This document shows, piece after piece, positions 549 to 9,700 of a stretch of 21,148 bases of DNA. The notes under the pieces were generated by a model. The model saw only the letters and a list, made by a program, of their open reading frames with translations. It had not been told where the DNA came from and ran no database searches. Location: the IMG/VR virus record IMGVR_UViG_3300043787_000164, positions 1 to 21,148 of that record; one strand, given 5' to 3'. The position numbers and the translations under genes were made by a program. The stretch's first letter is position 1; each line of letters begins with the position of its first letter. The DNA comes from a virus.

Positions 549-968
549 TTATATTATAGGCCATATATAGGGTAGATTATCTTGAACTCCGGGGAAAAGT
601 GGGCCATAGTGTTTAGAGTCCTTACGAATAAGATTAGACTGATGAGAAAGATGAAAGTAAGGATTACCTAACCAATGTGGATGTTCAAATACATAGTTAT
701 ATTTTTTCAGATAATCTTCTAGTTTACCGCAGCAATTATCTTCATGGCCTCGGTTCTTCCAAACTCTGCATATAGCTATTCCATAATCGGCTAGAGAACC
801 TTCATAGCCTTTCCACATCCTTACTGCGGGATGGTTTCTCCAGCCGCTTGTCTCTGCTGAAAGAGCTTGAAGAATCTGCAAAGCCTCAACTCGTTGCTTT
901 CCTAATCGGCGCGCATCTAGAATTTCTGCTGATCTATAAAAACTTTCATATGGCAAGAATGTTTGCAT
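549..968 (-). CDS. Pyrimidine dimer DNA glycosylase, MSMEG_6728 family
   Basis: The 139-residue product matches what I know of the pyrimidine dimer glycosylase/endonuclease V superfamily (Pyr_excise, DenV-like), in its actinobacterial MSMEG_6728 branch. Visible hallmarks are the N-terminal MQTFLPY, the LGKQRVEALQIL block (about residues 22-33), GWRNHPAVRMW (about 42-52), and the C-terminal HPHWLG and LSHQSNLIRK blocks. The length is about right for the family. Members are thought to cut the glycosyl bond at UV-induced cyclobutane dimers and nick the strand, so a repair role for phage DNA is likely. The ATG has an AGGA seven bases upstream, and the gene starts seven bases after the 976-1494 gene in the same leftward operon. 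The family call is firm; activity is inferred. Confidence 0.85.
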   Translation of the reverse strand: MQTFLPYESFYRSAEILDARRLGKQRVEALQILQALSAETSGWRNHPAVRMWKGYEGSLADYGIAICRVWKNRGHEDNCCGKLEDYLKKYNYVFEHPHWLGNPYFHLSHQSNLIRKDSKHYGPLFPGVQDNLPYIWPII

Positions 969-1992: not shown

Positions 1993-2078
1993 AGGACCAC
2001 TTGCCCAATTCGATCGGGCGGCTCGCGCCGGGAAGGGGTCTGTAAGCTTAGCTGTCTACCTCTACTGACTGCAATCTT

Positions 2079-2267
2079 TTATTGAATCTTTTCCACGCCA
2101 GATTCTGCCGGAGAATAAATCAAAGGATATAGTTCCTTATACTGGTAAGCAAGTTCACAGGAGCGGCTGCAAAACCACAAAGATCCATTCTTGAGCTTCT
2201 TTGTTCCGCACTCTTCGATCTCTCGATAGCAGCGGTCTGGATAAGCTAGATACGGGTTATCAATCAT
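2079..2267 (-). CDS. Small Cys-rich (zinc-finger-like) phage protein, leaderless
   Basis: I place the start at the ATG at 2267-2265, giving 62 residues (MIDNPYLAYPDRCYREIEEC...). A longer frame can be drawn from a TTG at 2303, but that TTG is itself the -35 hexamer of promoter P3, so it cannot be transcribed from P3. The protein has Cys pairs at CYREIEEC and WFCSRSC, the layout of a small zinc-binding knuckle: residues F-C-S-R-S-C-E resemble the second half of MYND/TRASH-type fingers found in small phage proteins. Seven bases separate the -10 from the ATG, so the mRNA is predicted to be leaderless. Confidence 0.7.
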   Translation of the reverse strand: MIDNPYLAYPDRCYREIEECGTKKLKNGSLWFCSRSCELAYQYKELYPLIYSPAESGVEKIQ

Positions 2268-2274
2268 AGTTCTA

Positions 2275-2322
2275 AGTATATCGACAGATCCTTGAAAAGT
2301 CAATAGTTCTTTTCAATCTTTA
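2275..2322 (-). promoter_or_regulatory. Sigma70-like promoter P3, leaderless, with TAAAGATTG box
   Basis: The minus strand has TTGACT (2303-2298), a 17-base spacer and TATACT (2280-2275), then seven bases to the ATG at 2267. The TAAAGATTG box is at 2322-2314, ten bases upstream of the -35. Confidence 0.8.
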
Positions 2323-2433
2323 TGTTCTTATGTGGCTATATACTTATTTGTTCTTATTGATACTATCTTTTTAGAATGAATTAGCCGGGGAGAATTGAAT
2401 CTCACGCGCAACTTCCGCGCCGGCTAGAAGTGG

Positions 2434-2628
2434 TCAATCCATAAATCGTATGTTGATGTAGCTACGGATATCGGCTTTGTTTTGTTCTGCTAGCTTTCGC
2501 ACGAAATCGCGCGCAGAGGAAAGAGTAATGGGATCAGCAGTAATGATCTCTATACCACGGACTACTCTGCTGCTGTGACCCGGTTCGATATCATATAGAA
2601 AGCGTGTTGACTTCTTTTCATTGATCAT
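2434..2628 (-). CDS. Hypothetical 64-residue phage protein, leaderless
   Basis: The start is set at the ATG at 2628-2626 (MINEKKSTRFLYD...). A longer frame from a TTG at 2676 would run through promoter P4 and is unlikely. The 64-residue product has alternating basic and hydrophobic segments (RVVRGIEIITADP, SARDFVRKLAEQNKA) typical of a small alpha/beta protein. No family is recognised. The -10 hexamer lies six bases from the ATG and there is no Shine-Dalgarno sequence, so the mRNA is probably leaderless. It is the leftward gene nearest to the divergent control region. Confidence 0.65.
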   Translation of the reverse strand: MINEKKSTRFLYDIEPGHSSRVVRGIEIITADPITLSSARDFVRKLAEQNKADIRSYINIRFMD

Positions 2629-2634
2629 TCTAAG

Positions 2635-2682
2635 ATTGTAGCACAGATATCTTGAGATTGGAAGAATCTTTATCAATCTTTA
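2635..2682 (-). promoter_or_regulatory. Extended -10 promoter P4 with two TAAAGATT boxes
   Basis: The minus strand shows TGC-TACAAT, an extended -10 (2643-2635), with a weak -35 TTCCAA at 2663-2658. Upstream are TAAAGATTC (2672-2664) and TAAAGATTG (2682-2674). The -10 overlaps a TGTAGCACA (2637-2645 on plus), a one-base variant of the repeated TGTAGAACA. Confidence 0.65.
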
Positions 2683-2767
2683 TTTTTGTTGTTCTTCACG
2701 GCGGAAATCGCGCGGGAGTTGGGTAGTAGTGGTATAGAACAGTAGTAGAGAAAACCCTTACCCCCCG

Positions 2768-2785
2768 GCTAAGCAGCAGCTTAGC
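2768..2785. repeat. Perfect 7-bp hairpin
   Basis: GCTAAGC, a four-base AGCA loop, and GCTTAGC form a perfect stem next to a run of six Cs. No T-run follows on either strand, so it is not a standard terminator. It may be a protein site or part of an origin. Confidence 0.4.
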
Positions 2786-2858
2786 TAGAGCTTGTGATAT
2801 GTAGCACAATATAGTTGATTATACAAACAACTTTATTGCAACCCTCCCACGTCTATGC

Positions 2859-2939
2859 TGTTCTACATTAGATCGATCTATCTAGACTGTAGGACAACCC
2901 TGTAGAACAAAAGATGTAGAACACTATATCTGTAGAACA
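2859..2939. repeat. TGTAGAACA repeat cluster, left group
   Basis: Exact copies are at 2859-2867 (as TGTTCTACA), 2901-2909, 2915-2923 and 2931-2939, with a one-mismatch copy (TGTAGGACA) at 2888-2896. Further near copies are at 2733-2741 (TATAGAACA) and 2800-2808 (TGTAGCACA). The last four sites start 13, 14 and 16 bases apart. TGT...ACA gives each site a small dyad. Confidence 0.8.
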
Positions 2940-3185
2940 ATCCTCAGCAGATTTCGCGCAGAGAAAGTTCTAAGTCTCTGTGACCTCACCTTTTTCAGTG
3001 GATGTCAGATAGGATCTCCTCTCGCTGCAGCTCGCGCCGGAGTGGTCAATCATTTCCCCCGATCGCTTCATATATACACGCGCGCGTCTGAAGGTAGTAC
3101 TGGCTGCCCCCAGGGGGTGCTCATGCTGCTTTGGATTGGATGGCTGACGGGGACGATGATAGTGAGCAAACGTCATCATAATATT

Positions 3186-3215
3186 TTGTAGAACAACTAT
3201 CTGATATGCTACAAT
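3186..3215 (+). promoter_or_regulatory. Rightward promoter P5, extended -10, overlapped by operators
   Basis: TTGTAG (3186-3191), an 18-base spacer and TGC-TACAAT (-10 at 3210-3215) form a plausible promoter for the 3278 gene. Exact TGTAGAACA sites cover its -35 (3187-3195) and the base after its -10 (3215-3223), so a protein bound there should block it. Confidence 0.6.
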
Positions 3216-3265
3216 GTAGAACAGAAGTATAGTATTTTATTAATTTTCTACAGAAATGTTCTACA
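3187..3265. repeat. TGTAGAACA repeat cluster, right group
   Basis: Exact copies are at 3187-3195, 3215-3223 and 3257-3265 (as TGTTCTACA), with TTTTCTACA at 3244-3252. The last exact copy runs into the Shine-Dalgarno sequence of the 3278 gene. Confidence 0.8.
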
Positions 3266-3277
3266 AGGAGAAGCTAC

Positions 3278-3490
3278 ATGGGTTATCAATATAAATTTAA
3301 TTATGTAAGAGTTGATGAAAATAAAATAAATAGTTATCTAGTAGATGATTTAAACCAGGCCATAGAGGAATTATCGGAATGTGAAGAAATGTCTCATATC
3401 ACTCGGGCCTGGATCGAGCGCCAGGAGGTGATCTATAGGGAGTGGGAAATATATGATATTCCCTCCGGCGCAGATGCTGCCGAGAAATAA
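3278..3490 (+). CDS. Hypothetical 70-residue phage protein, first rightward gene
   Basis: The ATG has an AAGGAG Shine-Dalgarno sequence seven bases upstream. The protein (MGYQYKFNYVRVDENK...) is acidic and looks alpha/beta, with a helical ELSECEEMSHITRAWIERQ segment; no family is recognised. Bases become noticeably more GC-rich in its last third (about 3405-3485). It lies directly downstream of promoter P5 and the TGTAGAACA sites, so it is probably the first gene controlled by them, a position typical of immediate-early or regulatory genes. Confidence 0.7.
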   Translation: MGYQYKFNYVRVDENKINSYLVDDLNQAIEELSECEEMSHITRAWIERQEVIYREWEIYDIPSGADAAEK

Positions 3491-3491
3491 T

Positions 3492-3520
3492 TTGACAAGC
3501 GTAGAGGTCTGTGCTACAGT
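3492..3520 (+). promoter_or_regulatory. Strong rightward promoter P6, leaderless type
   Basis: TTGACA (3492-3497), a 17-base spacer and TACAGT (3515-3520) with an upstream TGC make a near-consensus, extended -10 promoter. The next ATG begins seven bases after it. TGTGCTACA (3510-3518), one base from TGTTCTACA, overlaps the -10. Confidence 0.75.
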
Positions 3521-3526
3521 TATTTT

Positions 3527-3670
3527 ATGTATATATCCAGAAAAGAATATAATAATTTAAAAGATATTTTAGATTTACATTCTGAAAGTATAAAAACGAT
3601 AATTGAGGTTTTAGATACAATAGTTAATAGATTATCTGAAGATAAAAATTTAACTAAAAAGGAAATATAA
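3527..3670 (+). CDS. Leaderless 47-residue helical protein
   Basis: The frame begins at the ATG at 3527 and ends in TAA at 3668-3670. The product (MYISRKEYNNLKDIL...) is charged and probably one long helix or coiled coil (heptad-like I/L spacing through DILDLHSESIKTIIEVLDTIV). There is no Shine-Dalgarno sequence; promoter P6 puts the transcription start on or next to the ATG, so translation is predicted to be leaderless. The stop overlaps the next start (TAATG). Function unknown, but its position as first gene of the P6 operon and its near-operator site make a regulatory role conceivable. Confidence 0.65.
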   Translation: MYISRKEYNNLKDILDLHSESIKTIIEVLDTIVNRLSEDKNLTKKEI

Positions 3671-3774
3671 TGTTAACTATTATTTTAGGAATTCCATGCG
3701 TAATAATTGTTATTTTATTTATATCTAGGTGTGAATCCGGCTTATCAACTAAGAAGAGTAAAAGAAGAAAATGA
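3670..3774 (+). CDS. Small single-pass membrane protein, 34 residues
   Basis: The ATG at 3670 overlaps the previous stop codon by one base (TAATG), and its own TGA overlaps the next ATG (ATGA), so the frame sits exactly in a coupled chain. The protein has one hydrophobic segment (LTIILGIPCVIIVILFI, residues 2-18) followed by a basic tail ending KKSKRRK. This is the layout of a small inner-membrane protein with cytoplasmic basic tail. Such phage peptides can act in lysis control or superinfection exclusion, but nothing in the sequence shows which. Confidence 0.55.
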   Translation: MLTIILGIPCVIIVILFISRCESGLSTKKSKRRK

Positions 3775-3902
3775 ATTTATGTAAATTAAAATTACATAAA
3801 TGGAGTAAATGGTCTGCTACGATTTCAACTACTGGCAGAGATATTGCAAGGTATGTAGAGAATTGTAGAGCGGATTTAAGAAGGATAGGAGCTAAAGTAT
3901 AA
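3771..3902 (+). CDS. Hypothetical 43-residue basic protein
   Basis: The ATG at 3771 overlaps the preceding TGA by four bases, and the frame ends in TAA at 3900-3902, one base before the next ATG. The protein (MNLCKLKLHKWSKWS..., then RDIARYVENCRADLRRIGAKV) is strongly basic, with a HKWSKWS stretch like those in small phage proteins that carry Cys/His metal sites, although only two cysteines are seen. No function can be assigned. A larger opposite-strand frame covering the same DNA is a shadow. Confidence 0.6.
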   Translation: MNLCKLKLHKWSKWSATISTTGRDIARYVENCRADLRRIGAKV

Positions 3903-3903
3903 T

Positions 3904-4086
3904 ATGAATAACGATGTAACTTTACATATAAGATTGGAAAAGACTTTAAAGCAAGAATTAGAAAAGTATGCTGAAGCATATTCTTTAAAATTATCTAATG
4001 TAGTTCGTATTGCTTTAGAAGAATTTGCTTATAAAGATCATGAAGCTACTACTGAAGTAGCTAAAATAAAACAGGAGAATTTTTAA
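3904..4086 (+). CDS. Ribbon-helix-helix (Arc/CopG-like) DNA-binding protein
   Basis: The 60-residue protein fits the ribbon-helix-helix pattern: a short beta strand (DVTLHIRLEK, residues 4-13), helix A (KQELEKYAEAYSL), a turn with SNVV, and helix B (RIALEEFAY). Family members bind DNA as dimers through the strand pair and usually repress phage or plasmid promoters, often their own. It is the fourth gene of the P6 operon, whose -10 is overlapped by a near copy of the TGTAGAACA repeat. That makes it one candidate for the protein that reads those repeats. The fold call is fairly firm; the target is inference. Confidence 0.75.
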   Translation: MNNDVTLHIRLEKTLKQELEKYAEAYSLKLSNVVRIALEEFAYKDHEATTEVAKIKQENF

Positions 4087-4088
4087 AT

Positions 4089-4436
4089 ATGTTTGATTTT
4101 GATTTCCTTTTGAGACAAATGGACGATAAGATTGAGAAAAATTCTAAAAAGATTCAGGCATTAGCTATTAAAATAATTCCGTTAGAAGAAGAGAAAGAAA
4201 GAATAGAAAAAGCTAGACAAGTTTTAGCGGGAGAAGTTCCTGTAAGATTACCTCGTGGAACGATTACTTCTTCTATTATAGAGTTTATTACTAACAATGG
4301 ACCTGTTGTTATGAATGAAATAAGTAAGAGTATGGCAAAAAGTGGAATTATAGAATCTACTACAAGAACTATTATTTATAGCCTCTTAAAGGATAATAAG
4401 ATTAAGAGAAACAAAAATAAAGAGTACTATATATAG
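4089..4436 (+). CDS. Coiled-coil plus winged-helix DNA-binding-like protein
   Basis: The 115-residue protein has two parts. Residues 5-50 form a charged coiled coil (QMDDKIEKNSKK, then PLEEEKERIEKARQ). Residues 58-115 read like a winged helix: SSIIEFITNNG, NEISKSMAKSG, TTRTIIYSLLKDN, then a basic wing KIKRNKNKEYYI. The P-V-R-L-P-R-G linker joins them. A dimeric DNA-binding or nucleoid-associated role is likely; the partner is unknown. It follows the RHH gene by two bases. The next gene has a similar coiled coil followed by L-x-G-x-V-P-x-R, suggesting a diverged paralogue. Confidence 0.6.
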   Translation: MFDFDFLLRQMDDKIEKNSKKIQALAIKIIPLEEEKERIEKARQVLAGEVPVRLPRGTITSSIIEFITNNGPVVMNEISKSMAKSGIIESTTRTIIYSLLKDNKIKRNKNKEYYI

Positions 4437-4447
4437 ATAGAATATAA

Positions 4448-4747
4448 ATGATTTATAATATTTATTATTATATAAGCCCTACTGGAAGCAATGATTTGTA
4501 TATTAGTAAGTTACGGCGCGAGACTGCGGCCGAGATTTTGCGGCTAGAGGGTCAGATAGCTAATCTGAGGTTTTTTCAGTTAGCATTGGAGGGAAAGGTC
4601 CCTGGGCGTAAAAAGCCCGTTTCCCGGCGGAAATCTGCGAAAAAGAAAAATAAGACAAAATTAACAAAGAATGGTAAGAAGATTGGTAGACCTACTAATG
4701 CAGAAAAATTAGAACTTAAATATATGCTCATAAAAGAAATAAAATGA
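4448..4747 (+). CDS. Coiled-coil protein with basic, AT-hook-like tail
   Basis: The 99-residue frame has a coiled-coil segment (ETAAEILRLEGQIANLRFFQLALEG split by charged residues), a basic KKPVSRRKSAKKKNK stretch, and KKIGRPTNAEK, whose G-R-P flanked by basic residues resembles an AT-hook. This suggests nonspecific or AT-rich DNA binding. The start is uncertain: the ATG at 4448 has no Shine-Dalgarno sequence and the first 16 codons are extremely AT-rich. A TTG at 4496 with GGAAG upstream would give a protein starting at the coiled coil. Bases from 4511 to about 4640 are clearly more GC-rich than the flanks. Confidence 0.6.
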   Translation: MIYNIYYYISPTGSNDLYISKLRRETAAEILRLEGQIANLRFFQLALEGKVPGRKKPVSRRKSAKKKNKTKLTKNGKKIGRPTNAEKLELKYMLIKEIK

Positions 4748-4776
4748 GTAAAGCAACAACGGAGAATTTGCGCGGA

Positions 4777-4850
4777 TGGGGATTAGTGTAACATGGTGAG
4801 CACATCATACTTTGGATATGGTAGTTTAGGTTCGAATCCTAAATCCCCAG
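4777..4850 (+). tRNA. tRNA-Gln (anticodon UUG)
   Basis: The acceptor arms TGGGGAT (4777-4783) and ATCCCCA (4843-4849) pair perfectly, with G as discriminator base. The D stem is GTGT/GCAC with a GG in the loop, the anticodon stem TCATA/TATGG, the anticodon TTG at 4812-4814, a four-base variable loop, and the T arm TTAGG-TTCGAAT-CCTAA. CCA is not encoded. It should read CAA (and wobble CAG), and CAA is frequent in these AT-rich genes, so it probably supplements a GC-biased host tRNA pool. UUG is the Gln anticodon; pairing supports no other identity. Confidence 0.92.
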
Positions 4851-4870
4851 TGCGATAAATAAAGGAAAAT

Positions 4871-5071
4871 ATGATAGATACAGTATTAATTATAAATGGT
4901 GCTAAGTCTACAGATGATTTAACAGGATTAGATATTATATCTGAAGAATATGCCAGAGCTGAGAGAGTTATTCTAGTAGATAAATATGGAATAAGTAAGC
5001 AAGTAAAGTACAGAGTTGGAGAAAATGACCAGAGAGTTATGTATATAGATCTTGATAAATTAAATTTATAA
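4871..5071 (+). CDS. Hypothetical 66-residue phage protein
   Basis: The ATG has an AAAGGA Shine-Dalgarno sequence. The protein starts MIDTVLIINGAKS and alternates strands and helices (VILVDKYGISKQVKYRV, RVMYIDLDKLNL), suggesting a small mostly beta fold. No family is recognised. It sits between the tRNA and the LuxR-type gene, whose start overlaps its stop by one base (TAATG), so the two are translationally coupled. Confidence 0.65.
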   Translation: MIDTVLIINGAKSTDDLTGLDIISEEYARAERVILVDKYGISKQVKYRVGENDQRVMYIDLDKLNL

Positions 5072-5334
5072 TGGAACAGAAAAGTTTAACTCCTACTCAA
5101 GCTAAGTATCTAGCAAAATCTGCTAGAGGAATGACTTATGACCAAATTGCAAAAGATTGCGTAGTATCTGTAAAAACTATTACGGCTGCTTTGGCAGAAG
5201 CTAGAAAGAGATTGGGGACTAGAACTACATTGCAATGTTTCGCGGTGGCAATTTCGCGCGAGGAATTAGGAATAGATCACGAAGGTTATACTTTTGTACC
5301 TGAGAATCTTAAGAAAGGAAATATAAATGCCTGA
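5071..5334 (+). CDS. LuxR/GerE-type helix-turn-helix protein
   Basis: The 87-residue protein is essentially a stand-alone LuxR-type DNA-binding domain. It begins with the typical SLTPTQAKYL (cf. LTPRExEVL), then a G-M-T-Y-D-Q-I-A turn, the recognition helix region VSVKTITAALAEARKRLG, and TRTTLQC before a short C-terminal tail. There is no receiver or ligand domain, so it is likely constitutively DNA-binding or controlled by amount. In the family this domain binds promoters, often as an activator. It could switch phage transcription; the target is unknown. It is coupled to the preceding gene and overlaps the next by eight bases. Confidence 0.75.
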   Translation: MEQKSLTPTQAKYLAKSARGMTYDQIAKDCVVSVKTITAALAEARKRLGTRTTLQCFAVAISREELGIDHEGYTFVPENLKKGNINA

Positions 5335-5929
5335 GTTCCCGATACCGCCTGACGTGGTGGAGGCGGCGCTGGATGCCCAACTCGCCGCCGAAGAGGCTGG
5401 TCATGATTGCTGCGGCCCGGTCGCGATGGAGGCAGCGATCCGCGAGGCCCTCGACAAGCTAGGGCTACGAGAGGAGCGGCCGGCTGACGGAAGTGCTCTA
5501 ATCATGAGGGCTCCGTTTGACGAGGCTGCTTGTGAGCCCCGTGGCGAGTGCCCGATGTGTGGGGGCGAGACTGATCATCACCCCAAATGCGAAGTTGGCA
5601 TCTTGTCGGCTCGCGCTGTAGCTGCTGAGCAGCGGGTAGCCGAGCTGGAGGAGGCCGCTGACGGGCATCGTCAGGGCGCAGCCAACCTTGAGGATCTACT
5701 CGAATCCGCCGAGGCTGAGCGAGATGCGTTGAAGGAGCGCGTCGATCTCCTTGAGCAGTGGCTTGGGTGGATTCGCGCGACGTGTCAGCGCAACTTCGAC
5801 GGCGAGAGTGCTGCTACCTATCGCGGGCTCGTCAACTTCATCGACTTCAACCTACCCGATGCCGCGCAACGCGTAGCGGAGGAAGAAGGGGCGGCTCTCG
5901 CGGCATCCGTCTCCAAGAAAGATACTTAA
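5327..5929 (+). CDS. GC-rich cargo gene: zinc-ribbon plus coiled-coil protein
   Basis: The base composition changes abruptly at this gene. Codons become strongly G/C-ended (for example GTGGTGGAGGCGGCGCTGG) between AT-rich neighbours, and the change ends at its stop, so it looks recently acquired from a GC-rich genome, perhaps the host or another phage. The 200-residue protein has a zinc-ribbon-like CPMCGG...HHPKC (about residues 75-88), then an Ala/Glu-rich coiled coil (about 97-145), then a region with GLVNFIDFNLPDAA. Similar small phage proteins with a CPxCG site followed by a coiled coil are common and of unknown function. A bidirectional terminator follows. Confidence 0.75.
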   Translation: MPEFPIPPDVVEAALDAQLAAEEAGHDCCGPVAMEAAIREALDKLGLREERPADGSALIMRAPFDEAACEPRGECPMCGGETDHHPKCEVGILSARAVAAEQRVAELEEAADGHRQGAANLEDLLESAEAERDALKERVDLLEQWLGWIRATCQRNFDGESAATYRGLVNFIDFNLPDAAQRVAEEEGAALAASVSKKDT

Positions 5930-5937
5930 AATAATTA

Positions 5938-5984
5938 CGCCCCATTTCTAATCGAAAGAAACAGGGCGCATTATAAAGTTTTTC
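5938..5984. terminator. Bidirectional terminator between convergent genes
   Basis: CGCCC-CA-TTTCT (5938-5949) pairs with AGAAA-CA-GGGCG (to 5968), with one two-base mismatch, around a loop of about six bases. A T-run (5979-5983) follows about ten bases later on plus, and TAATTATTTT follows on minus. It separates the rightward gene ending at 5929 from the leftward gene ending at 6019. Confidence 0.6.
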
Positions 5985-6018
5985 TATTCTAAGAAATTCT
6001 AAGAAGTTAGATGTATAA

Positions 6019-6474
6019 TTAAGGTCCTCCGCAAGCTGGTACACTAACGGGCCAAGATCCTGGATCTATAGACTCGTAATAGTTAAATACACGAGTTTGA
6101 TTTTCTGGAGAGGCTCCAGAAGCAGATCCATATTTCAATCCACCTGCTGCTGCCCAAGTTGAAGGATCCCATTGATAAGCTCCTTCATATGGTGGATCTA
6201 TTATATGCCAGTTAATGGTGCTATATGAATAAGATCCTGGGCTTCCTGCCTCTCTGTTAGCTACGCAGAGATCAAAGGAAGTTATATTTGACTGTGGGTC
6301 AGGAATTCTATATTTTGCTATATGATGATGATTTATATGGTGTTTATGATGTACTTTAATTGCTTTATTAGGAACTGTTGATACTATATTTAACGCAGTA
6401 AGCGTTAGACTGACGAAAACAAGTCCGATAAAATCGGCTCCCTTTTTCGTTTTAGCGCTGCGTTTGTCAGCGCC
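6019..6474 (-). CDS. Rpf/transglycosylase-like cell-wall lytic protein without a normal start codon
   Basis: The minus-strand frame is open from an in-frame TAG (6477-6475) to TAA at 6021-6019. It encodes a basic N-end (KRSAKTKKGADF), a hydrophobic signal/anchor (IGLVFVSLTLTALNIV), a His-rich linker (VHHKHHINHHH) and a domain matching the resuscitation-promoting-factor/transglycosylase-like fold: FDLCVANRE (E at codon 6252-6250 is the likely catalytic Glu), GAYQWDPSTWAAAGG, ASPENQTRVFNYYE, WPVSVPACGG, with the two cysteines expected to form a disulfide. It would cleave peptidoglycan, as a lysin or virion-associated hydrolase. No ATG, GTG or TTG occurs before the domain; the first in-frame candidate, a TTG at 6138, would cut it in half. 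AAGGGAG lies eight bases before an ATC at 6429. A non-canonical start, a frameshift or a decayed gene are the options. It is opposite in strand to its neighbours. Confidence 0.65.
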   Translation of the reverse strand, partial: GADKRSAKTKKGADFIGLVFVSLTLTALNIVSTVPNKAIKVHHKHHINHHHIAKYRIPDPQSNITSFDLCVANREAGSPGSYSYSTINWHIIDPPYEGAYQWDPSTWAAAGGLKYGSASGASPENQTRVFNYYESIDPGSWPVSVPACGGP

Positions 6475-6479
6475 CTAAC
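6404..6479. ncRNA. Folded RNA element, three-way-junction-like, at the lytic gene start
   Basis: Four perfect helices fit into 76 bases: 6404-6408/6475-6479 (GTTAG/CTAAC), 6413-6419/6444-6450 (ACGAAAA/TTTTCGT), 6425-6429/6433-6437 (CCGAT/ATCGG) and 6455-6460/6468-6473 (GCGCTG/CAGCGC). On the minus strand the element covers the start region of the Rpf-like frame and encloses its AAGGGAG. It does not match a riboswitch class I can name. Control of translation is inference. Confidence 0.4.
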
Positions 6480-6506
6480 AGAAAAGGCTTCCGTAGAAGG
6501 AAGCCT
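6476..6506 (-). terminator. Intrinsic terminator between promoter P7 and the lytic gene
   Basis: On the minus strand AGGCTTCC, a six-base loop and GGAAGCCT are followed at once by TTTTCTGTT. There is no T-run on the plus side. It lies about 70 bases after promoter P7 and before the Rpf-like frame, so it either acts as an attenuator or ends a small RNA. A second hairpin (AGGATCA/TGATCCT, 6517-6540) precedes it. Confidence 0.65.
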
Positions 6507-6548
6507 AATTTCTCATAGGATCATCTACTTCGTTGATCCTGTACTTGC

Positions 6549-6596
6549 ACACTACTACTTCAAGAGTGGTATGTCAACACCTGCTCGATATCTTTA
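6549..6596 (-). promoter_or_regulatory. Sigma70-like promoter P7 with upstream box
   Basis: The minus strand has TTGACA (6577-6572), a 17-base spacer and TAGTGT (6554-6549). TAAAGATAT at 6596-6588, ten bases upstream of the -35, is a two-mismatch version of the TAAAGATTG box at the same spacing as in P2-P4. Confidence 0.65.
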
Positions 6597-6597
6597 T

Positions 6598-6619
6598 CTA
6601 TAGATTTTAAAATCTATAG
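6598..6619. repeat. Perfect 22-bp palindrome
   Basis: The palindrome reads CTATAGATTTT from either end. It lies just upstream of promoter P7 and before the rightward virion operon, so it is a good candidate operator between divergent units. No T-run suggests termination. Confidence 0.6.
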
Positions 6620-6690
6620 TACTTGTTTTAAAATTACATAGTTTTCTGCACTGGGCGAAAATCGCGCGGCGTGGAATTATTAGTAGGAAA

Positions 6691-6927
6691 ATGACTTCTC
6701 ATGATGTTGAGAATAAAAGAATTTCACCCCGGCCGCTTTTTGAAGCGGGAAAACTTAGATGTCCTCACGATAAACAAACTCACGATATTCTTACTTATAA
6801 GAGATTTGATTTGCCTAGAGAGTTTGAGACTCAATTAAATGTAGTTTTAAGATGTGCTTTTTGTAGCCATGTATTTTCGCCGCATCTTAATGATGATGAG
6901 ATGAAATTTATTGAGGAATCATTTTAA
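6691..6927 (+). CDS. Small zinc-ribbon-like phage protein
   Basis: The 78-residue product contains LRCPHDKQTHD (about residues 22-32) and LRCAFCSHVF (about 53-62), a C-x-H...C-x2-C-x-H arrangement that fits a zinc ribbon. It is the first gene of the rightward virion operon and its stop overlaps the next start by one base. The ATG has a short-spaced AGGA upstream. Small zinc-ribbon proteins are frequent next to phage structural genes, but no specific role is visible. No clear promoter was found in 6620-6690, although a GC-rich GGCGAAAATCGCGC stretch lies there. Confidence 0.65.
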   Translation: MTSHDVENKRISPRPLFEAGKLRCPHDKQTHDILTYKRFDLPREFETQLNVVLRCAFCSHVFSPHLNDDEMKFIEESF

Positions 6928-7466
6928 TGATTACAGATATAAAGTTAGCATCTGAAAAAAGGCACGAGGAACTTTTATTAGAAGACATTGATAAAAGATT
7001 AGATCTTTTATTAGCCAATTATCAGAGAGTTACTGCGAATCCAAGATCAATGGGATATCTAAGATTTTTACTTCGGCATTATGCTAAGAGCCCTACCCCC
7101 TGGCGTAGCTGCTATCAGGACAACCTCAAGCGGTGGGGTCCAGAGCGGACAAAAGGTCTCTGTGCGACCGTCAAGGACCTTATCCGCCAGAATACCTACT
7201 GGCGGCATGGAGCGCCTGCTGGGCCGCACGCTAAATCGGCTCCATTTGATGTAGGAGCACCAGGAGTAACCATTGCTTATGCAGACAAAGGCGCAGCAAA
7301 TCCTCCGTGGCATGGTGGAGGGCACGATTTAGGCGAGATGGCTGTACCAGATGATATTTGTTTAATAATGGAAGATTTAGGAAAGCAATGTGATCCATAT
7401 AGAGTTTTATTGGGTTTAGATCCCGCGCCAAATCCCTCTTCTGAATTAGAAAGTTTATTGCTTTGA
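6927..7466 (+). CDS. Conserved phage protein upstream of the capsid protease
   Basis: The 179-residue protein has a charged N-terminal helix (EKRHEELLLEDIDKRLDLL) and a central block NPRSMGYLRFLLRHYAKSP, then RWGPERTKGLCATVKDLIRQ and YWRHG. From memory a similar block (LLRHYAKSP...CAVLKDLIRGTTKWRG) occurs in proteins of actinobacterial phages near the portal/protease genes; its function is unknown. DNA for the block (about 7080-7250) is much more GC-rich than the flanks, so the gene is mosaic in base composition. It overlaps the 6691 gene by one base and the protease gene by four. I considered a head-assembly role from position only. Confidence 0.65.
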   Translation: MITDIKLASEKRHEELLLEDIDKRLDLLLANYQRVTANPRSMGYLRFLLRHYAKSPTPWRSCYQDNLKRWGPERTKGLCATVKDLIRQNTYWRHGAPAGPHAKSAPFDVGAPGVTIAYADKGAANPPWHGGGHDLGEMAVPDDICLIMEDLGKQCDPYRVLLGLDPAPNPSSELESLLL

Positions 7467-9700
7467 AAAATCGCCCGACTAAATCAATGGCGAATGCCGC
7501 AAAAGAAGGTTTGAGTTTATTTACTGCTGGAAACTTTCCTGTTAACTCAGTAACACCAAGGGCCATTGATGTGGGTAGAAAGATTGCTTCAGGACAAGAA
7601 TTGGACGATTCTCATATTAATGACATGGCTCATTACCATTCTTCTCATGATACTTGTCCTAAAGATTGTGAGGATCTTCTTTGGGGCGGCCCTGCCGGAG
7701 AGACTTGGGCAAAGGGAAAGATTATGCAGCAATTGAATACTGGGTTTGCAGAGGAAAATATAGATTATAATAAGTTTCTTTCTGATAAAGATACTAATTT
7801 AAGTTTAGAGATATTTTCAAATATAAAACTAGATGAGCCTGAAGAAAAAACTGATGATGGATTAATTTGGGCGCCAATCGCGCGGAGTGGAATGTTAGCT
7901 ACTCGCCCCGGTCCTAATGGGGAGAAGTTAGATAAACCTCTTGTATTTGTTCCTGGTTACTCAGATAATCAGAGAGAAAAAATAGGTCTTCAAGATATAT
8001 ATGATTCTTTTAAAGATAAGGCTGTAGAGTATACTACTATTCCTCTATCTCATGAAAATAATGTTCTTGAGAATACTGGATATATTAAAGATGTAAAAAT
8101 AGTTGATTCTAAAAAGATTCCCGGAGAGAAAGTTTTATTAGGTGGGCATGATTTTACAGAGCCAGAGGTAAAAGAGAAAGTAGAAAGAGGATCTATTCCT
8201 TCTAGATCTTGTGGGCTCTTATATGATTATAAAAATACTACTACTGGTAAAGTTTATCCAATTGCTTTAGATCATGTTTGTCTTACTCATAAACCTTGGA
8301 TGGGAGGAATGGCATCTTATGGGAGTACAGAGTTTTCTGATTCAAACGTAATTCCAATGATGCTTTCTGAGCAACCATTTACGGCGGAAATTGCGCCAGA
8401 GGATAAATCTTTTCCGACAAAACTTGCGCAAGAAATCACTAAACCACAACCTAAAGATAAAGAGGTTTTAGGAGAGTTTCTTGCAGATGTGCAGTGGGGA
8501 GATGAACCATCTTATGGCGATATAGAAAAGCAGATTAATCGTATTTTGGATGGATTTACTGGAGATATAGATTCATATCCGAATTACTTTTTAATTGATT
8601 GTACTGCAAATAAAGCTCTTGTAAAGGTAGATTACGGAATTGGTCCAGATCAAGATGCTTGGGTTGTTCCTTATATGGTTCAAGATGAAAAAGTTCAATT
8701 AGCACCTTTTACTGATTGGGTAGATGTAACTAAGAAATGGGTTAGCGATACAATTGATCCAAAACAAGATAAAGAACAATTGGATAAATTAAAAATGTCA
8801 AATGATAAAGAAGTAATAACTAGTCTTTATCTGTCTGTTCCGCAGGCAAAGAGAGATAGAGCAAAAGCAGCAGGTCATGCGCTGCCTGATGGTTCTTATC
8901 CAATTGAGAATGAGCACGATCTTCATTCAGCGGCTGTCCTTGCTGCATCGGGACATGGAGATGTTTCTGCTGCAAAATCTTTAATTCGACGCAGGGCTAA
9001 AGATCTTGGAGTAGATATAAATTCTTTGCCAGGATTTGGCCCGAAAAAAGAAAGTAAATCAAATATGTCCGATCCCTTAAAAGAGGCTTCGGCTAAAAGA
9101 CTTGGACTATCTGAGTCAAATAACAATCAGCCCATAGGAGGCCCAATGACACTCCTGATGTCAGAGGAAAAAATGGAGCTGCTTGGCCTTTCTGATGAGG
9201 CTAGGGAGTTTCAGAGACTACAGAATAAAGAGATCGAGAAATTACATCTTAAGCTTTCTGAGTCTCAAAAAGTAGAGAAAGAAACGAGTACGGCAAATAA
9301 AATTGCTAAATATAAAGAAGAAGGTTTAGAGGCATTTCCTGGTTTACTTAGAGAGTATGAGGTTACCGCTTTAAGTGATGATGGAGATGTTGCAGTAAAA
9401 CTTCATCTTTCTGAGAATGGGCATGAAACTACTATGGTAGAGACTGCGACTCAGATTGCTGAGCGGTTTATGGCGGCAATTCCGCGAAAAGATGGGAAAG
9501 TTAATCTTGGAGAGTTTGCCAATAAATTGGAAACTCCAAGCCTAGATCGTCCAAATCTTAAACCAGACGGTGCAGAGGATAAAAAAGATAGGAAAGAAAT
9601 GACGGGTGAGGAGCTTTTGGCCGAGATGGAATCTGCTGATCCTTCACTTAAAAGAGATTCAGAGTTTCTTGCGCTGAGTGATATCGGGAAAGGAAAATAA
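7463..9700 (+). CDS. Capsid maturation protease-scaffold fusion protein
   Basis: The 745-residue protein looks like a multi-domain prohead protease. Residues 1-90 hold a block known in phage proteases (RPTKSMANAA..., DDSHINDMAHYHSSH, LLWGGPAGETWA). Residues 135-285 match the protease: H at about 197 (LSHENN), then GSIPSRSCGL with Ser at about 247-249, then LDHVCLTHKPW. Residues 336-426 hold a WVVPYMVQDEKVQL domain. Residues 455-518 hold PQAKRDRAKAAG, ALPDGSYPI and RRRAKDLG, a common C-terminal block. Residues 545-745 are charged and helical, scaffold-like. Such proteins shape the procapsid and then cleave it. The frame starts at TTG 7463, overlapping the preceding stop; ATG 7487 is an alternative. 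A nested start lies at 9146. Confidence 0.8.
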   Translation: MKNRPTKSMANAAKEGLSLFTAGNFPVNSVTPRAIDVGRKIASGQELDDSHINDMAHYHSSHDTCPKDCEDLLWGGPAGETWAKGKIMQQLNTGFAEENIDYNKFLSDKDTNLSLEIFSNIKLDEPEEKTDDGLIWAPIARSGMLATRPGPNGEKLDKPLVFVPGYSDNQREKIGLQDIYDSFKDKAVEYTTIPLSHENNVLENTGYIKDVKIVDSKKIPGEKVLLGGHDFTEPEVKEKVERGSIPSRSCGLLYDYKNTTTGKVYPIALDHVCLTHKPWMGGMASYGSTEFSDSNVIPMMLSEQPFTAEIAPEDKSFPTKLAQEITKPQPKDKEVLGEFLADVQWGDEPSYGDIEKQINRILDGFTGDIDSYPNYFLIDCTANKALVKVDYGIGPDQDAWVVPYMVQDEKVQLAPFTDWVDVTKKWVSDTIDPKQDKEQLDKLKMSNDKEVITSLYLSVPQAKRDRAKAAGHALPDGSYPIENEHDLHSAAVLAASGHGDVSAAKSLIRRRAKDLGVDINSLPGFGPKKESKSNMSDPLKEASAKRLGLSESNNNQPIGGPMTLLMSEEKMELLGLSDEAREFQRLQNKEIEKLHLKLSESQKVEKETSTANKIAKYKEEGLEAFPGLLREYEVTALSDDGDVAVKLHLSENGHETTMVETATQIAERFMAAIPRKDGKVNLGEFANKLETPSLDRPNLKPDGAEDKKDRKEMTGEELLAEMESADPSLKRDSEFLALSDIGKGK
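9136..9700 (+). CDS. Nested in-frame scaffold protein with its own ribosome binding site
   Basis: Inside the protease gene, a full AGGAGG (9136-9141) stands four bases before an in-frame ATG (9146, codon 562). Translation from there would give a separate protein of about 184 residues consisting only of the helical, charged scaffold part (MTLLMSEEKMELLGL...). This is the lambda C/Nu3 arrangement, in which a protease gene contains a free scaffold gene in the same frame. AGGAGG also codes for Gly residues, so chance is possible, but it is the strongest Shine-Dalgarno sequence I see within this long AT-rich gene. Confidence 0.5.

Follow-up and report, generated by a model that had tools for sequence, protein, structure and literature searches.

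A short DNA word recurs in both orientations across a divergent control region of the virus record studied here, raising the question of whether a single protein reads it and what that protein would control. The stretch analysed, referred to as the window, is the whole 21,148-base record, itself a fragment of a genome. The word is the 9-mer TGTAG(A/C)ACA (TGTAG[AC]ACA), which occurs 10 times in the window, as compared to a mean of 0.26 in dinucleotide shuffles.

A 9-letter word clustered at a divergent locus

All 10 copies of TGTAG[AC]ACA lie within 1 kb, at 2637-3518, and none is present in the remaining window; a reversed control pattern yielded 0 matches over the full length. When up to one mismatch to TGTAGAACA was allowed, 14 matches were obtained, whereas 100 shuffles averaged 4.1 and never exceeded 10. 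A preliminary description, made from the letters, had placed seven exact copies of TGTAGAACA and several near copies in this region, and each of them is present at its position and on its strand (Table 1). The same holds for the one-base variants that it had seen over the -10 elements of promoters P4 and P6. The cluster is therefore real as described, whereas the extent originally given to it, 2733-3265, was too narrow.

Since the window comprises just a 21-kb fragment, the genome-wide motif check was run on three near-complete relatives, which had been found by using the capsid and LuxR-type proteins as queries: G001 (91,381 b), G002 (91,255 b) and G003 (93,609 b), with capsid identities of 71-82%. 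These genomes contain 15, 9 and 14 copies of the word, respectively, compared to shuffle means of 0.9, 0.8 and 1.3. Inside 1 kb, we counted 7, 5 and 9 copies in the relatives and 10 in the window, while no shuffle had more than two. Rather than being evenly spread, the 9-mers are concentrated in two regions. The main cluster occupies the same divergent locus in all three relatives, having leftward genes on one side and, on the other side, the rightward operon for a ribbon-helix-helix (RHH) protein, a LuxR-type protein and structural proteins. Comparison with these phages also revealed that the cluster is kept while its sites have shifted: individual positions moved from phage to phage, with no one-by-one conservation, which indicates that the regulatory word is maintained rather than sequence identity being inherited. 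The array is real, conserved and regulatory.

Table 1. Features of the control region in the window and main clusters of the word in the three relatives
Feature	Position	Strand	Remarks
Gene behind P4	2628-2434	-	apparently leaderless start
P4 -10, TACAAT	2640-2635	-	leftward promoter; ATG 6 nt beyond -10
Putative operator TGTAGCACA	2637-2645	+	leftward reading TGTGCTACA; overlaps P4 -10
Near copy TATAGAACA	2733-2741	+	1 mismatch
Putative operator TGTAGCACA	2800-2808	+
Putative operator TGTAGAACA	2859-2867	-	sole opposite-orientation site in left half
Four head-to-tail sites	2888-2939	+	2888 (TGTAGGACA); 2901, 2915, 2931 (TGTAGAACA); start-to-start 13, 14, 16 nt
Spacer element, ~80 bp	3100-3183		motif read on - (leftward) strand; partly conserved in four phages: GATGACGT...ATCGNCCCCG...GCCA...GAGCACCCCCTGG
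Putative operator TGTAGAACA	3187-3195	+	on -35 (TTGTAG, 3186-3191) of rightward promoter P5
P5 -10 and adjoining site	3205-3223		TACAAT 3210-3215, formed by one-mismatch copy TATGCTACA (3205-3213); exact TGTAGAACA site 3215-3223 (+) directly after
Near copy TGTAGAAAA	3244-3252	-
Putative operator TGTAGAACA	3257-3265	-	abuts AAGGAG ribosome-binding site of first rightward gene (3278-3490)
Promoter P6	3492-3529	+	rightward; TTGACA 3492-3497, 17 nt, TACAGT 3515-3520
Putative operator TGTGCTACA	3510-3518	-	as TGTAGCACA; on P6 -10
Gene behind P6	3527-3670	+	apparently leaderless; ATG 6 nt past -10
RHH protein, 60 aa	3904-4086	+	Arc/CopG-like; favoured candidate binder/autorepressor
LuxR/GerE-type helix-turn-helix protein, 87 aa	5071-5334	+	alternative candidate binder or later-gene regulator
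Main cluster, G001	2970-4102		8 sites
Main cluster, G002	71602-72979		6 sites
Main cluster, G003	80488-81454		9 sites plus one TGTAGTACA

The edges of the motif were defined by comparing 35 array sites matching TGTAGNACA, taken from the window and the three relatives. They proved to be sharp, with eight fixed positions, A or C at position 6, and flanks carrying no information. The arrays contain essentially no TGTNNNACA with centres other than those of the motif, and the AG therefore belongs to the recognition sequence. The spacing of the sites is irregular, ranging from 10 to 583 nt, with some pairs 10-16 nt apart and many sites standing single.

Beyond this group of phages, the array was absent from the fragments of distant capsid relatives (34-35%) that we examined. 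Among 50,697 cultured phage records, neither a DNA search with window positions 2000-8000 nor protein searches with the capsid and RHH proteins returned a match; the maturation-protease region was matched by Gordonia phage ChisanaKitsune over a short stretch, at 57%. Scanning 2.9 million viral contigs for paired TGTAGAACA produced at least 119 stretches and, among the matches listed, no comparable array except that of G003; a second scan, for the tandem pair, yielded nothing more than pairs in contigs other than G003. The multi-site stretches of the first scan (L120, L016, L124) were discarded as repeats in or near coding sequence or as simple repeats. One of them, on an unrelated viral contig (L120:10565-11325), holds 23 TGTAGAACA copies within 1 kb amid a mosaic of ~10-bp repeats (TGACGTACAT, TGTAGTTCAT), which we regard as a coincidence of the word, though odd in itself. 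A literature search for TGTAGCACA gave chance matches only, among the matches listed.

The second group of sites is found near tRNA genes (G001 71268-74262, corresponding to L131:9268-12262; G003 12751 and 13239; G002 1041 and 89067). As a cluster it spans 71-74 kb in G001 and 12.7-13.2 kb in G003, in or close to the region where GC skew is maximal. At three of these sites (G001 73887, G001 74254 and G002 1041), the 9-mer is followed by a common CATTAGATT. The copy at G001 71268 sits immediately behind a transposase-like ORF (L131:8857-9267), which is present in G001 only and is 62-65% identical to ORFs of Actinomycetota MAGs. These best matches of the IS transposase are suggestive, but only suggestive, of an actinobacterial host.

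Sites on core promoter elements and their orientation

Read as TGTKCTACA, the word gives TACANT at the -10 of P4 (2637) and P6 (3510) and at G001 4094 and 3633, and near copies supply a TACANT -10 at P5 (3205), G001 3330 and G003 80139. For P5, the preliminary description had proposed that one site covers the -35 element and another abuts the -10, which holds on the sequence; G001 has a pair, CGTGCTACAaTGTAGAACA, equivalent to the P5 near copy and exact site. P6 has counterparts with a site on the -10 in G001 (TTGACA-18-TACAAT) and G003 (TTGACA-17-TACGCT). Except at P5, the word-bearing -10 elements are followed by an ATG 6-7 nt downstream, implying leaderless messages. Further sites fall on ribosome-binding sites or start codons (window 3257; G001 3452-3485; G003 80681), and in the window as well as in the relatives repeated sites overlap or flank promoters of the operon. 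Promoters of the same type lacking the word are present at 2275(-) and 108(-) of the window. Since such motif-free leaderless-type promoters occur, the word is not just the host -10 but an addition to the basic promoter.

The orientation of the sites tracks transcription on either side of the divergence. On a unified map, sites lie on the + strand left of the divergence point and on the - strand right of it; applying the best single switch per genome, this arrangement accounts for 30 of 33 sites (P = 0.0013, with 0.13% of random orientations scoring as well). In map order, the strands are ++-+++++-- in the window, +++----- in G001, +++++---- in G003 and -+-+-- in G002, the latter being the exception to this pattern. 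Where the leftward arm of G001 ends, in its second cluster, the polarity relative to leftward transcription is reversed; polarity is therefore not a general property of the sites and may reflect the overlap with -10 elements. The earlier proposal that one protein could serve both leftward and rightward transcription gains support from the conservation in four phages, the -10 overlap and the orientation switch at the divergence point.

Between the two halves of the array sits the spacer element, which was also located at L130:3230-3326, L162:755-860 and L132:12296-12400. We considered it as a structured RNA and rejected this idea, as in none of the four phages does it fold better than shuffled sequences; an Rfam match was likewise absent. 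A leftward protein encoded in the spacer was also dismissed, the frame (69 aa in the window) not being conserved and meeting early stops in G003 and G001.

Proposed operators for early shut-off and a possible replication origin

The enrichment of the word, its retention at one shared locus by the four phages, its overlap with core promoters, its transcription-linked orientation and the co-location of an RHH gene with invariant contacts are all observed features of this region. With moderate confidence, we favour the reading that the array represents the operators of one phage-encoded sequence-specific repressor, most plausibly the RHH protein, controlling divergent early transcription. The binding, the repression, its timing and the RHH protein as the binder are what we infer from sequence. 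Upon DNA entry, when the repressor is absent, the strong promoters, several of them apparently leaderless, would fire in both directions, and the rightward operon would yield the small Arc/CopG-like RHH protein. Having accumulated, this protein would occupy the TGTAG[AC]ACA sites on -10 and -35 elements, start sites and ribosome-binding sites, turning off both directions, its own operon included, in an autogenous shut-off. Such a circuit, the most parsimonious one, would act as a timed early shut-off and not as an immunity switch, since the phage lineage is probably virulent, that is, non-lysogenic. The proposal would predict the set of early promoters and the way they are silenced without lysogeny genes. 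For an uncultured phage lineage of ~91-94 kb, to which none of the cultured phages searched is closely related, it delimits a control region and names both a 9-bp word and a candidate regulator of 60 residues. Moreover, the four phages, having kept the motif while the sites moved, offer a natural test set for the evolution of operator arrays.

Such a system is known in kind, whereas its particulars are new. Among described circuits, the nearest is that of Reg(p576): this RHH repressor from pLS20-family conjugative plasmids has short operators next to or on both sides of several promoters, one of which lies upstream of the repressor gene itself (PMC8708921). There, too, short repeated operators lie at strong promoters, and an entry burst of early genes is followed by shut-off. 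The operators of Reg(p576) are dual heptamers (TTATCCCnnTTATCCC), whereas those proposed here would be single polar 9-mers, irregularly spaced and placed on the -10 elements of leaderless-type promoters. Among phages, Arc and Mnt of P22 are small RHH proteins that repress phage promoters. The Foldseek match of the window RHH protein to Arc is weak, but the fold is the same. Arc binds one operator as two dimers, in contrast to the ~10 dispersed putative sites in two transcription directions seen here. More generally, RHH repressors usually bind adjacent pairs of sub-sites as two dimers, and the many single, irregularly spaced sites therefore count against the RHH-operator reading. The second-cluster sites near the tRNAs are also harder to read as promoter operators, and the true binder could be encoded outside the 21-kb window or be unrecognisable by family models.

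Origin function, alone or combined with operator function, is the main rival. The likeness of the 9-mers to DnaA boxes in size and irregular arrangement suggests that they could be initiator boxes beside an AT-rich unwinding region, the promoter overlap then reflecting autoregulation by the initiator. DnaA-box clusters and plasmid iterons likewise have 9-mers in both orientations, an AT-rich neighbour and a GC-skew minimum. In each of the three relatives, cumulative GC skew reaches its minimum within the array (G001 3425, G002 72339, G003 80821) and its maximum in or near the second motif region (G001 73456, G002 146, G003 11491). The array also contains the most AT-rich 60-80-bp windows of G002 (72185-72260, the genome minimum) and G003 (80553-80660, joint lowest) as well as, for G001, the 60-bp window ranking third in AT content, and a DnaB-type helicase, a primase and RecA are phage-encoded. 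However, divergent transcription at the same point likewise creates a skew minimum, and the sole opposed gene family has a third-position skew near zero, intermediate between what replication and transcription would cause. Unlike DnaA boxes, the word is not TTWTNCACA; neither a DnaA C-terminal domain nor a recognised initiator was found, and many copies lie on core promoter elements, including isolated sites that coincide exactly with -10 elements and are separated from the AT-rich tract by hundreds of bp. On balance, we consider a replication origin less likely than an operator role. More doubtful still is a dual role, in which one 9-mer system would provide both operators and origin in a new virulent lineage, the RHH protein or an unrecognised initiator coupling shut-off of the divergent, apparently leaderless early promoters to the start of replication, with the second cluster lying near the skew maximum. 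The locus offers a direct way to ask if early shut-off and the replication origin use the same sites.

Candidate binders and further readings

According to an ORF comparison, the recognisable DNA-binding proteins common to all four phages are the RHH and LuxR-type proteins, both of which had been nominated as binders. In 4/4 phages, both genes are found downstream of the array, on the same strand, the RHH gene being at 3904 in the window, 5718 in G001, 69735 in G002 and 78538 in G003. The RHH family has Arc-like repressor matches in PHROG, and its model matches CopG, ORF56, SvtR and Arc in Foldseek, with probabilities of up to 0.99 and weak E-values, as expected for 60 residues. For both folds, contact positions were taken from general knowledge. 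In the predicted base-reading strand of the RHH protein, T-x-H-I-R-L, the T, H and R are 100% conserved in the four sequences, compared to 50% overall pairwise identity. In contrast, the presumed recognition-helix contacts of the LuxR-type protein have a mean pairwise identity of 0.13 in the four phages vs 0.55 overall, and just 0.6% of random column sets are equally variable. Because the 9-mer and the RHH strand are constant, whereas the LuxR-type recognition helix has diverged, we favour the RHH protein as the better candidate reader. Its nomination is strengthened by the invariant strand, and that of the LuxR-type protein is weakened. The LuxR/GerE-type protein (5071) is conserved in the same operon in all four phages and clearly has the GerE/NarL DNA-binding fold; yet, with almost all of its presumed base contacts differing between phages although the 9-mer is unchanged, it seems improbable that this protein, instead of the RHH protein, binds the sites as a repressor or activator.

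Even less credible is that the word is no operator but part of the promoters themselves, namely an upstream-extended -10 recognised by RNA polymerase carrying a phage or host sigma factor. TGTKCTACA does often provide TACANT at the -10, and its orientation tracks transcription, but in most sites the sixth -10 position is not T, copies are also found on ribosome-binding sites and start codons, and other promoters of these phages do without the word.

The poorest chance of all falls to an L5-type stoperator or immunity system, in which a lysogenic repressor halts transcription at polar sites. Stoperators of cluster A phages are asymmetric and follow transcription, and their reversal abolishes function (PMC9283540, PMC6550527). 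The present array shares the short asymmetric sites and the correlation with transcription only locally, in the main array, while in the second cluster of G001 the polarity relative to the leftward genes is opposite. L5 and its cluster A kin are temperate and have 13-bp sites genome-wide, read by a monomeric two-domain HTH repressor, whereas we observed a local 9-bp array and detected no lysogeny genes. In the three near-complete relatives, searches for a tyrosine integrase (PF00589), a serine recombinase (PF00239) and a ParA-type ATPase (PF13614) found none, though fragments and divergent proteins could escape such searches; a CI-like HTH_3 scored above cut-off in G002 only, and no CI-type repressor is common to the relatives. 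In these genomes, copies of the 9-mer gather in two regions instead of occupying intergenic gaps genome-wide. With lysogeny genes not found and the sites concentrated, a lysogenic switch is unlikely, and both the phage immunity switch and the stoperator-like system raised in the preliminary description are disfavoured.

The 9-mer was also considered, and rejected, as an orienting word of the FtsK type: an FtsK/SpoIIIE protein is encoded, but FtsK_gamma gave just one sub-threshold match in one genome. The FtsK/SpoIIIE-family translocase, which has an FtsK alpha domain, is conserved in G003 (L162:11452-12609), G001 (79779-80564) and G002 (82669-83793), its best cultured-phage matches being only ~38% identical. 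A class II lysyl-tRNA synthetase-like protein of 413-435 aa was recognised by eye in G003 (L158:5053-6294), G001 (L131:14678-15985) and G002 (L132:6652-7893), where its gene lies directly downstream of the LuxR-type gene. Beside the RHH gene, two phages encode small lysine-rich proteins with GRP-type (AT-hook-like) ends (window 4448-4747; L130:5894-6223), which are possible nucleoid-type proteins. Finally, the window encodes a pyrimidine-dimer DNA glycosylase at 549-968 (-) (Pyr_excise, E 1.5e-22), which is also found in G001.
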